Positions 13,301-23,265 of a stretch of 50,722 bases of DNA are shown one piece after another. Every line of letters begins with the position of its first letter. The first letter of the stretch is position 1. Under the pieces are notes generated by a model, which saw nothing but the letters and a program-made list of their open reading frames with translations, searched no databases and had not been told where the DNA came from. Source of the DNA: Bacteroidia bacterium (lineage in GTDB: Bacteria; Bacteroidota; Bacteroidia; Cytophagales; Cyclobacteriaceae); contig JAUIAO010000044.1 in the NCBI GenBank assembly GCA_030425425.1, positions 1 through 50,722 of the forward strand, given 5' to 3'. Both the position numbers and the translations under genes were made by a program.

Positions 13301-13353
13301 ATTGGTATTATTGGCGGGAAGCTGAATTTTAGAGTTAAACATGTTATTGATTA

Positions 13354-13385
13354 AATAACTCAATAACTCAATAACTCAATAACTT
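13354..13385. repeat. Four tandem copies of an 8-bp unit (AATAACTC)
   Basis: AATAACTC is repeated three times exactly and a fourth time with a final T, in the 151-bp gap between the carboxylase and the SirB1-like gene. Possibly a slippage-prone spacer; no function is visible. Confidence 0.85.
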
Positions 13386-13451
13386 CTTTTTAAACTCGTA
13401 GAAATCATTAATTTAGACGCTTTAGAAATTCCAAAAAGTACCCGAAAGTTG

Positions 13452-20159: not shown

Positions 20160-21947
20160 ATGAAAAACATTCGAAATTTCTGCATCATTGCTCATATTGA
20201 TCACGGGAAAAGTACTCTGGCTGATAGGTTGATTCAATCTACTCAGACGGTTTCTGACCGTGAAATGCAGGCTCAGCTTCTTGATGATATGGATCTGGAG
20301 AGGGAGAGAGGTATTACCATCAAGAGCCATGCAATTCAGATGTACTATCATGAAGGTGGTCAGGAATACACGCTCAATTTGATAGACACTCCGGGCCATG
20401 TGGATTTCTCCTATGAAGTGTCCAGATCAATCGCAGCATGTGAGGGAGCATTGTTAGTAGTCGATGCTGCACAAGGGATTGAAGCTCAGACTATTTCCAA
20501 TTTATATTTAGCACTTGAGCATGATTTGGAAGTAATTCCGGTTTTGAATAAGATCGATTTGCCAGGAGCAATGATCGAAGAAGTTTCGGACCAAATCATC
20601 GATTTGATAGGGTGCGATAAAGAAGATATCATTCATGCGAGTGCCAAAGAGGGGATTGGTGTGCCAGAAATATTAGAAGCAATTGTCGCGAAAATCCCAT
20701 CACCGAAAGGAGACGAGGAAGAACCTCTACAGGCCATGATTTTCGATTCTGTTTTCAATCCATACAGGGGAATCGAAGTATTTTTTCGAGTTTTCAATGG
20801 ATCTCTTAAGAAAGGAGATAGCGTGAAATTTGTTAATACGGGTAAAACCTATGATGCTGATGAAATTGGAGTTTTGAGGCTTCAGCATGAACCTAAGAAT
20901 CAAATATCAGCAGGAAATGTAGGATATCTTATTTCTGGGATTAAAGTAGCGAAAGAAGTAAAAGTAGGGGATACGATCACTCATGTGGAGCGACCGACTC
21001 AGCGTCAGGTAAAAGGTTTCGAAGATGTGAAGCCAATGGTGTTCGCCGGAATATATCCAGTGGAGACTAGTGAGTTTGAAGAGTTGAGAGCGTCCATGGA
21101 AAAGCTACAACTCAACGATGCTTCGTTGGTATGGGAACCTGAGACATCTGCCGCTCTCGGGTTTGGATTCAGATGTGGTTTCCTCGGAATGCTGCACATG
21201 GAGATCGTTCAGGAGCGGTTGGAACGAGAGTTTGATATGACCGTGATCACTACGGTTCCATCCGTACAATTTCATGCGGTGAAAGAGGATGGAGAAATTG
21301 TAAAAGTAAGTGCTCCTTCTGAATTGCCAGAGTCTAATCTGATTTCTCATGTTGAAGAGCCTTTTATCAGGGCGCAGATCATTACAAAATCAGATTACAT
21401 AGGTTCGGTGATTGCTCTCTGTATGGATAAGCGAGGTGAAATCAAGAATCAGGTTTATTTGACTGCAGACAGGGTGGAGCTAACATTTGAGTTGCCTTTG
21501 GCTGAGATCGTTTTTGATTTCTTTGACAAACTCAAAACAATTTCCAGAGGGTATGCTTCGCTGGATTATGAGCTGATTGGATATCGCACCTCAAAATTGG
21601 TGAAACTGGATATCCAGCTCAATGGTGAAAAAGTTGATGCGTTATCGGCTATTGTGCATAGAGACAAAGCATATGAGTGGGGAAAGCGACTTTGTGAAAA
21701 GCTGAGAGAATTATTGCCACGCCAGATGTTTGAGATTGCGATCCAGGCATCGATTGGAACAAAGATTATCGCTCGGGAGACGGTGAAAGCCATGAGGAAA
21801 AACGTATTGGCCAAATGTTACGGAGGAGATATATCTCGAAAAAGGAAACTTTTGGAAAAGCAGAAGAAAGGTAAGAAGCGAATGCGCCAGGTTGGAAATG
21901 TAGAAATTCCTCAGGAAGCATTCATGGCAGTTTTGAAATTGGATTAA
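20160..21947 (+). CDS. lepA: Elongation factor 4 (LepA) GTPase
   Basis: A 595-residue translational GTPase that acts on stalled or mispositioned ribosomes. The G1 motif AHIDHGKST is at residues 10-18, followed by RGITIKSHA (G2), DTPGHVDF (G3) and NKIDLP (G4). Domains II, III and V follow, and the LepA-specific C-terminal domain is visible in the basic segment [24 protein letters not shown]. Length is normal. A repeat-flanked four-helix-bundle cassette begins immediately after the stop codon. Confidence 0.98.
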
Positions 21948-21953
21948 AAGCAA

Positions 21954-21981
21954 GAAGCTCGAAGTAGGAAGCATGAAGTAT
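21954..21981 (+). repeat. Four tandem GAAGnnn heptads, left border of cassette
   Basis: GAAGCTC, GAAGTAG, GAAGCAT and GAAGTAT lie head to tail with an exact 7-bp period, from 6 bp after the lepA stop to 3 bp before the ATG of the four-helix-bundle gene. The same kind of array appears inverted at 22349-22376. Confidence 0.85.
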
Positions 21982-21984
21982 TGA

Positions 21985-22347
21985 ATGGAAATAGGGAAAT
22001 TCAAATTTGAGGGTTTAAGAATATGGCAAGATGCCATGCAATTGGCAGAGGACATATTTCAGGATTCTAAGAAATTTCCCAATGATGAAATTTATAATCT
22101 TACTTCACAGATTCGCAGAGCTTCTGATTCAATTGCCTTAAATATATCTAAGGGATCAATTTTACAGTCGAATTCAGAATTTTCTAGATTTTTAGGATAT
22201 TCAATTCGATCATTAGCCGAGGTAATTACATGTTTACACAAGGCACAAAGAAGAAAATATATAGATCAAAGTAAATTTGAGCAGTATTATGCTCGAAGTT
22301 TTAATTTAATGAATATGATGATCGGATTTAGAAATAAGTTGAAATAA
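21985..22347 (+). CDS. Four-helix-bundle protein (23S rRNA intervening-sequence protein family)
   Basis: A 120-residue all-helical protein of the family first found in intervening sequences of 23S rRNA genes and related to the Avd accessory proteins of diversity-generating retroelements. Diagnostic parts are FEGLRIWQDAMQLAEDI near the start, LTSQIRRASDSIALNISKGS in the middle (the conserved Arg-Arg-Ala-x-x-Ser-Ile segment) and a C-terminal helix. No reverse transcriptase is nearby. The gene fits tightly between two inverted heptad arrays and separates lepA from folD, so it looks like an inserted unit. Confidence 0.9.
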   Translation: MEIGKFKFEGLRIWQDAMQLAEDIFQDSKKFPNDEIYNLTSQIRRASDSIALNISKGSILQSNSEFSRFLGYSIRSLAEVITCLHKAQRRKYIDQSKFEQYYARSFNLMNMMIGFRNKLK

Positions 22348-22348
22348 T

Positions 22349-22376
22349 CAACTTCTAGCTCCGTTCTTCCAACTTC
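22349..22376 (-). repeat. Four tandem heptads in inverse orientation, right border of cassette
   Basis: On the plus strand CAACTTC, TAGCTCC, GTTCTTC and CAACTTC; read on the minus strand these are GAAGTTG, GAAGAAC, GGAGCTA and GAAGTTG. Period is exactly 7 bp. It starts 1 bp after the stop of the four-helix-bundle gene. Confidence 0.85.
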
Positions 22377-22389
22377 CAACGAAAAAGAC

Positions 22390-23265
22390 ATGCCTACATT
22401 ACTCGACGGAAAAAAAATCGCTGGGGATATTAAAAGCGAGATTTCAGCAAGAGTCCAGCAACTAAAAGATAAAGGTTTGCGTGCACCTAACCTTGCAATA
22501 ATTATTGTAGGGGATGATGGAGCGAGTCATACATATGTCAATGGAAAGATCGCGGCATGTAAGTCTGTAGGTTTTGATTTTACGCTCATGCATTTTGCGA
22601 GTACGATTTCAGAGGCTAAGCTGATGAAACATGTAGAAAACCTGAATGAAGATGAAGATATTGATGGCTTTATTGTACAGTTGCCTTTGCCTGAGCACAT
22701 TTCTGTAGAGAAAGTCACTGAGGCGATTCGCTCTGAAAAAGATGTAGATGGATTTACAAATCAAAACTTTGGAAGTATTGTATCCAAAAATCAGCTAATC
22801 ATGCCAGCTACACCGTGGGGAGTCATGGAACTTCTAAGAAGGTATGATGTGCCAACTGAAAGTAGACATTGTGTGATTGTGGGTGCTAGTCGGTTAGTAG
22901 GCGCTCCTCTAGCCATGATGATGTCAGAAGAAGGACATGCCACTGTTACGCTTTGTCACAAATACACAGAAAACTTAGCTTACCACACGCAAAATGCAGA
23001 TATACTTGTGTCAGCAGTTGGTAAACCTGATTTGATTACAGAAGATATGGTCAAAGAAGGAGCTGTAGTTGTGGATGTGGGTACTACCAGAGTAGAAGAT
23101 AAAAGTAGAAAAACCGGCTTCAGATTGTCTGGTGATGTGAATTACGATTCGGTAGCTCCGAAATGCAGTTTTATAACACCAGTTCCCGGCGGAGTAGGGC
23201 CGATGACCATCGCATCTTTATTGATGAATACACTAAAAGCATATGAAAGTCAGCACAGCGCATAA
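22390..23265 (+). CDS. folD: Methylenetetrahydrofolate dehydrogenase / cyclohydrolase
   Basis: A 291-residue bifunctional enzyme of one-carbon metabolism that interconverts 5,10-methylene- and 10-formyl-tetrahydrofolate with NADP. Motifs: SHTYVNGKIAAC with catalytic Lys53, the DGFIVQLPLPEHI loop, VDGFTNQNFG, the dinucleotide site GASRLVGAPLAMMM and the C-terminal PVPGGVGPMTIASLL. Length is as usual. Its end overlaps the annotated queE start by 23 bp. Confidence 0.97.
   Translation: MPTLLDGKKIAGDIKSEISARVQQLKDKGLRAPNLAIIIVGDDGASHTYVNGKIAACKSVGFDFTLMHFASTISEAKLMKHVENLNEDEDIDGFIVQLPLPEHISVEKVTEAIRSEKDVDGFTNQNFGSIVSKNQLIMPATPWGVMELLRRYDVPTESRHCVIVGASRLVGAPLAMMMSEEGHATVTLCHKYTENLAYHTQNADILVSAVGKPDLITEDMVKEGAVVVDVGTTRVEDKSRKTGFRLSGDVNYDSVAPKCSFITPVPGGVGPMTIASLLMNTLKAYESQHSA

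Follow-up and report, generated by a model that had tools for sequence, protein, structure and literature searches.

Between two genes that we take to be lepA and folD (these names, like sdhA-sdhB and fadB-fadA below, are our reading of the translations and not the annotation of a tool), a short gene is framed by two inverted arrays of 7-bp repeats, which raises the question of whether gene and arrays form one mobile unit. The window, i.e. the whole stretch of 50,722 nt analysed here, contains the presumed lepA at 20160–21947 (+ strand), and six bases after its stop codon begins the left array (21954–21981, + strand), with four GAAGNNN units starting at 21954, 21961, 21968 and 21975. The ORF (21985–22347, + strand) runs from the ATG at 21985 to the TAA at 22347 and codes for 120 aa. 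It is followed by the right array (22350–22377, − strand) and by the presumed folD (22390–23265, + strand), and the unit totals ca. 430 bp, arrays included. A preliminary description of this DNA placed the gene between these two neighbours, with four heptads on the left in exact 7-bp register and four inverse heptads on the right; the ORFs and the left array are as described, and the right array does keep register 7 throughout, but only three of its units are exact (CTTC at 22352, 22366 and 22373), the unit at 22359 being CTCC by a substitution.

The product scored 104.1 bits against PF05635 (cut-off 33.8) and 101 bits against TIGR02436 (cut-off 24), which confirms its proposed membership in the four-helix-bundle (IVP, S23-type) family. 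Its matches in the PDB were 2gsc (E 7.6e-15) and, weakly, 2rld (E 0.035), each with five chains per entry. The protein had no match in PHROGs or PADLOC, and an Rfam search of the window at the gathering threshold found only a tRNA.

A single array of this kind is unusual in the genome that carries the window, yet not unique. The exact pattern GAAGNNNGAAGNNNGAAG occurs there at three places, two of them runs of four, and in 397 kb of its sequence that contain no PF05635 gene we found six places where an exact 4-mer core is repeated four times with period 7, as against 0–1 places for each of the control periods 5, 6, 8, 9, 10 and 11. This genome contains 11 PF05635 genes, many of which show, by eye, short inverted arrays with differing units. 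No recent copy of the unit was found: the sole other match in its own genome was 122 bases long, at 70 %, and among the 150 genes described below the closest protein encoded at a different site is 66 % identical. Elsewhere in the window (13342–13392), an octad array repeats AATAACTC about four times; it occupies a spacer flanked by two ORFs, has a short inverse copy on its left and no PF05635 gene nearby, and is a gene-less relative of these arrays. At another locus of this genome (L200, 12958–12993), GAAG-type heptads lie, by eye, seemingly inside an ABC-F-like coding sequence.

The flanks of the whole family were then considered in two sets of genes. The first comprised 150 distinct PF05635 genes with 150 bp on each side, from 155 hits in relatives and across the phylum (five were dropped as duplicates or for lacking the 150-bp flank), and arrays were called against a 99 % null calculated for each period. 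Of the periods from 4 to 15, 7 and 14 stood out clearly in the flanks, and 8 to a lesser degree. A period-7 array was present to the left of 94/150 genes (63 %), to the right of 80/150 (53 %) and on either side of 113/150; the corresponding either-side counts were 30/150 for period 8, 12/150 for period 9 and 2/150 for period 6. Counting periods 7 and 8 together, arrays were present on at least one side of 138/150 genes and absent from 12/150, and where both sides carried one (75/150) the period was equal in 73 of the 75. The two flanks also had opposite base skews, with G exceeding C in 129 left flanks (the reverse in 17) and C exceeding G in 121 right flanks (the reverse in 24).

Inverted array pairs flank PF05635 genes far beyond chance. 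In the first set, the similarity of the left flank to the reverse complement of the right flank averaged 25.6 within a copy and 15.4 against other copies, and none of 20,000 permutations reached the observed sum. Direct similarity between the two flanks was also raised, less strongly (18.9 vs 14.8). Own inverted pairs exceeded the 95th percentile of cross-pairs in 79/150 cases and the 99th in 53/150, so that many single pairs are weak. The second set consisted of 87 further genes from 91 named-record loci (80 genome contigs and 11 plasmids), including cyanobacteria, one Gemmatimonadota plasmid and one Desulfobacteraceae contig. Here, period 7 appeared on some side of 68/87 genes, period 8 of 9/87 and periods 5, 6 and 9–12 of 0–3 each; in 10,000 permutations, the inverted sum was 2541 against a maximum of 1664, and the direct sum 1787 against a maximum of 1608, with 18/87 inverted and 12/87 direct pairs above the cross-pair 99th percentile. 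The Calothrix plasmid copy (L382) has no evident array, the direct orientation scores higher than the inverted one in the Pseudanabaena and Gemmatirosa copies, and three of the 38 loci first read (40, less two that were too short) had direct arrays instead of inverted ones.

Arrays could be measured to the left of 160/237 genes and to the right of 146/237, with a median length of 29 nt and mostly 3–5 units. The GAAGnnn heptad, which the preliminary description had treated as the border to search for, does not extend to the family, since the 7- or 8-bp units vary from copy to copy; the shared feature is inverted pairing and not a sequence. A layout of four conserved and three variable positions was likewise discarded as a general rule, being only weakly general (contiguity 3.77 vs 3.71 when permuted).

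Period-7 arrays occupied 2–10 % of the flanks of ordinary spacers, compared with the 63 % and 53 % seen at PF05635 genes. These controls were real spacers of 60–600 bp upstream or downstream of ordinary ORFs, and the counts were 5/124 upstream and 6/114 downstream in the window's own genome, 5/154 and 3/126 in genomes without a PF05635 gene, and 13/158 and 13/136 in carrier genomes. A looser control, based on mechanically called ORFs (120 aa or longer, with overlaps allowed), gave 45/600 on either side. By distance from the gene at 149 loci, 87 period-7 arrays lay within 100 bp, 11 at 100–300 bp, 21 at 300–1000 bp and 32 beyond; they concentrate at the gene and exist elsewhere too. Strong period-7 arrays numbered two in 360 kb from nine genomes without a PF05635 match (both in one genome), 11 in 400 kb from eleven carrier genomes, counting those beside PF05635 genes, seven in 397 kb of the window's own genome and four in 340 kb of genome G123, all of them small numbers.

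Alignment of the lepA-folD region of close relatives, suggested in the preliminary description, yielded empty sites in genomes of the same genus. Among 30 lepA loci, the folD start motif was found nearby in eight: two are occupied (the window and G004) and six are empty (G001, G002, G003, G005, G032 and G036), with 22–76 bases up to the motif. Remeasured to the folD start codon, the spacer is 59 bases in G001 and 16 bases in G005, both empty, and two further loci missed by the motif (L021 and L035) appear empty by eye. The occupant in G004 has GAAG-type units and one in-frame stop. At fadB-fadA, 14 of 30 loci could be parsed (nine of the other 16 gave no start and seven no upstream end); ten were occupied and four were empty, with 29–38 bases and no array, and the occupant in the window's genome differs from that of G001–G004. 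Within one genus, the number of PF05635 copies ranges from 1 to 11, and copy numbers of 13, 7 and 9 were counted in three close genomes that belong to the same class and a different family. No target duplication was found at the chromosomal sites because their spacers are too diverged.

Cyanobacterial plasmids provided closer comparisons, occupied and empty ones being 91–98 % identical and the empty ones having no arrays. Site A is occupied in Trichormus and Scytonema and empty in Nostoc linckia, Aulosira and Nostoc carneum (97–98 % identity), and comparison of Trichormus with N. linckia revealed an exact 5-bp target duplication, GTAAT; a sixth plasmid contains there, by eye, a left array and a piece of broken gene. 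At site C, TTCTA flanks the element on either side with a mismatch of one base, and sites B and D exist in occupied and empty states without a clear duplication, which makes one exact 5-bp duplication, one off by one base and two sites with none that is clear. The elements at sites A and D share 83 % nucleotide identity over an alignment that spans about the element alone. The empty sites at lepA-folD in the same genus, together with those in similar plasmids, indicate that the gene and its arrays behave as an inserted unit. At a cas6-cas4 plasmid site of Anabaena (L374, 531–1380) the inverted arrays are seemingly nested, with outer units of the GTGACAG and inner units of the GGGAAGA type; there is no clean junction there because the relative has another insert.

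The insertion spots appear to be used repeatedly, as supported by differing occupants on near-identical flanks: at one site, with flanks 95–97 % identical, two different proteins (43 % identity) are bordered by different arrays. Occupancy can also be stable: at one site, of another genus, the 30 nearest genomes (counting that of the query) were all occupied, so that some copies are long-term residents. Among 20 more distant genomes, the family model matched in four at this site, once weakly, and the remaining 16 lack the gene, nine of them having, by eye, a gene-less heptad hairpin. The sdhA-sdhB spacer occurs in three states, with gene and arrays, with nothing or with the hairpin alone. At yet another site, in two spacers (L521 and L523, site of L489), heptad arrays surround REP-like palindromic cargo and no gene. 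We considered whether the gene-less hairpins might be high-copy MITEs and rejected this, since an exact AAGANNN hairpin pattern occurred at only 0–2 places per genome in 22 genomes, a count that covers this unit and not others.

The hairpin-only states open the strongest of the rival explanations, in which the inverted heptad arrays would be common hairpins of the spacers in these genomes, prone to slippage, and PF05635 genes insert into their loops, as 23S intervening sequences (IVSs) do in rRNA helices. It would account for the hairpins without gene in the other genus and in sdhA-sdhB, for the REP-like cargo and for the gene-less inverted pairs in the window's own genome (e.g., L188, 18862–18947). 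The preliminary description had held that heptads occurring widely without the gene would speak against a cassette, and this is partly the case, because arrays, even as inverted pairs, do occur alone. Nevertheless, the empty plasmid sites carry no arrays at 91–98 % identity, arrays are few in the nine genomes without the gene, and the repeat units tend to track the protein lineage across sites, for which reasons we regard a pre-existing hairpin as unlikely.

This association was examined in pairs of copies at different sites, without homologous neighbours. Unit similarity increased with protein identity (r 0.122, 1/2000 permutations), its mean being 0.106 below 25 % identity, flat at 0.118–0.125 between 25 and 50 %, 0.189 between 50 and 60 % and 0.286 above (42 pairs). 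Additionally, the nearest protein elsewhere had an equal period in 120/138 cases, with 92 expected. The array unit thus follows the protein lineage across sites weakly but significantly. For kin of the window protein at other sites, one copy (L182, 64 % identity) has GGAAGYT-type units and another (L142, 66 %) has a different unit.

Judging from sequence divergence, strong purifying selection acts on the protein in all seven pairs examined, with dN/dS values of 0.049–0.120, one pair having dS near saturation. These values (0.05–0.12) would also suit a domesticated operon regulator, in which the protein and its arrays would be a host attenuator of the neighbouring genes, inherited mostly vertically; its placement in sense ahead of another gene and the site occupied in 30/30 nearest genomes are in line with such a role. 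However, the functions of the neighbours are unrelated (cas, nrd, fadB-fadA, sdhA-sdhB and lepA-folD), and both the empty sites and the range of 1 to 11 copies inside one genus argue against it, making a host regulator improbable. Of the two options in the preliminary description, a minimal mobile or a domesticated unit, insertion is borne out by the empty sites, and the strong purifying selection leaves some room for domestication.

The gene is mostly oriented with its neighbours: both were co-directional in 125 of 150 cases, both opposed in 7 and mixed in 11, the direction of one neighbour or of the two being unknown in the other 7; control pairs of adjacent ORFs were on the same strand in 228 cases and not in 46. 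An RNA step or selection for expression could lie behind the placement in sense. When the RNA of the window unit is folded by prediction, parts of both arrays pair in the MFE and centroid structures (z −3.35), and the median number of predicted pairs between flanks was 26 for own flanks (237 pairs) and 14 for mismatched ones. Copying of the RNA by a reverse transcriptase acting in trans, much as the Avd relative operates next to such an enzyme in diversity-generating retroelements, would fit the sense bias, this predicted pairing and the resemblance of PF05635 to Avd noted in the accessible part of PMC10053308, but is weakened to the point of being very improbable by the 11 of 21 carrier genomes without a match to RVT_1 (the one model used), four of which have 12–15 PF05635 copies among the matches listed. 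The window's own genome has three RVT_1 matches, all on other contigs. On one contig of another genome (G160:C1), RVT_1 matched 19 times; many of these matches score identically and probably represent a retroelement family with multiple copies.

The explanation that best joins the architecture, the matching of left and right flanks, the unit-lineage link, presence and absence in relatives, the reuse of spots and purifying selection is that the window unit is a copy of a minimal mobile element with a wide distribution, of the 23S-IVS type but outside rRNA, inserted mostly in sense between the genes of operons; we give it a probability of roughly 0.6. The element would consist of an array of 7- or 8-nt repeats, a PF05635 four-helix-bundle ORF and an inverted array, over about 430 bp. 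In the polycistronic RNA, the arrays would pair into a stem and leave the ORF in the loop, and the protein may bind its own array at each repeated unit, which would tie unit and period to the protein lineage. The unit would spread whole, arrays included, by means of an enzyme encoded outside it, and gene-less arrays could be decayed copies or short relatives. TRAP binds RNA one unit per subunit along a ring. By analogy, we tentatively propose that each four-helix-bundle lineage might read and maintain its own array, with a ring whose subunits each take up a 7- or 8-nt unit along the RNA, joining the inverted arrays and both protecting the unit and helping it to move; extrapolating from the five-chain relatives, the reader could have five subunits for five 7-nt units.

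If this is true, we would be dealing with a new class of mobile elements of minimal size, whose ends are set by the geometry of the repeats instead of a fixed sequence, and many of the heptameric repeats in the spacers of bacteria would stem from them. Of 296 genomes sampled across this phylum, 220 have PF05635 genes scoring over the cut-off of the family. Were these genes the cargo of hairpin-ended mobile units, the origin of the 23S IVSs would be linked with the heptameric repeats of spacers and with what the Avd-like fold does, and the rule follows that each protein is expected to bind at the array next to its gene.

MITEs and IS elements are defined by inverted ends of fixed sequence and by target-site duplication. 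The window unit resembles them in its inverted ends, and a target duplication is exact (5 bp) at one site of a relative, off by a base at a second and not clear at two more; unlike them, it has no transposase, its ends differ between copies and its ORF is under apparent purifying selection. With diversity-generating retroelements it shares the likeness of PF05635 to their accessory protein Avd (PMC10053308, in part), but it has no adjacent reverse transcriptase, and no RVT_1 match was found on the window's contig. The accessible portions of the open-licence literature (including PMC5524665 and PMC8700078) contain no description of heptad arrays around stand-alone PF05635 genes. The heptameric repeats of cyanobacteria, Beggiatoaceae and Xanthomonas are, like the window arrays, tandem 7-bp units in spacer DNA, mostly intergenic, with 70 convergent pairs in one Xanthomonas genome; unlike these arrays, they are linked to no four-helix-bundle gene in the accessible parts of the two sources, whose authors generally found no association of GGGAATC repeats with mobile elements (PMC4679880, PMC4692102). 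The window unit differs from 23S IVSs in lying between protein genes, outside the 23S rRNA gene, and PF05635 units differ from them in occurring in several copies per genome with differing repeat units. Still, the closest precedent, as far as the available text of PMC4990558 goes, is the 23S IVS of Coxiella, called selfish, which has tandem heptads just upstream of an S23p ORF and a 28-bp terminal stem, i.e. an S23-type ORF between complementary termini, as in the window unit with its predicted stem.
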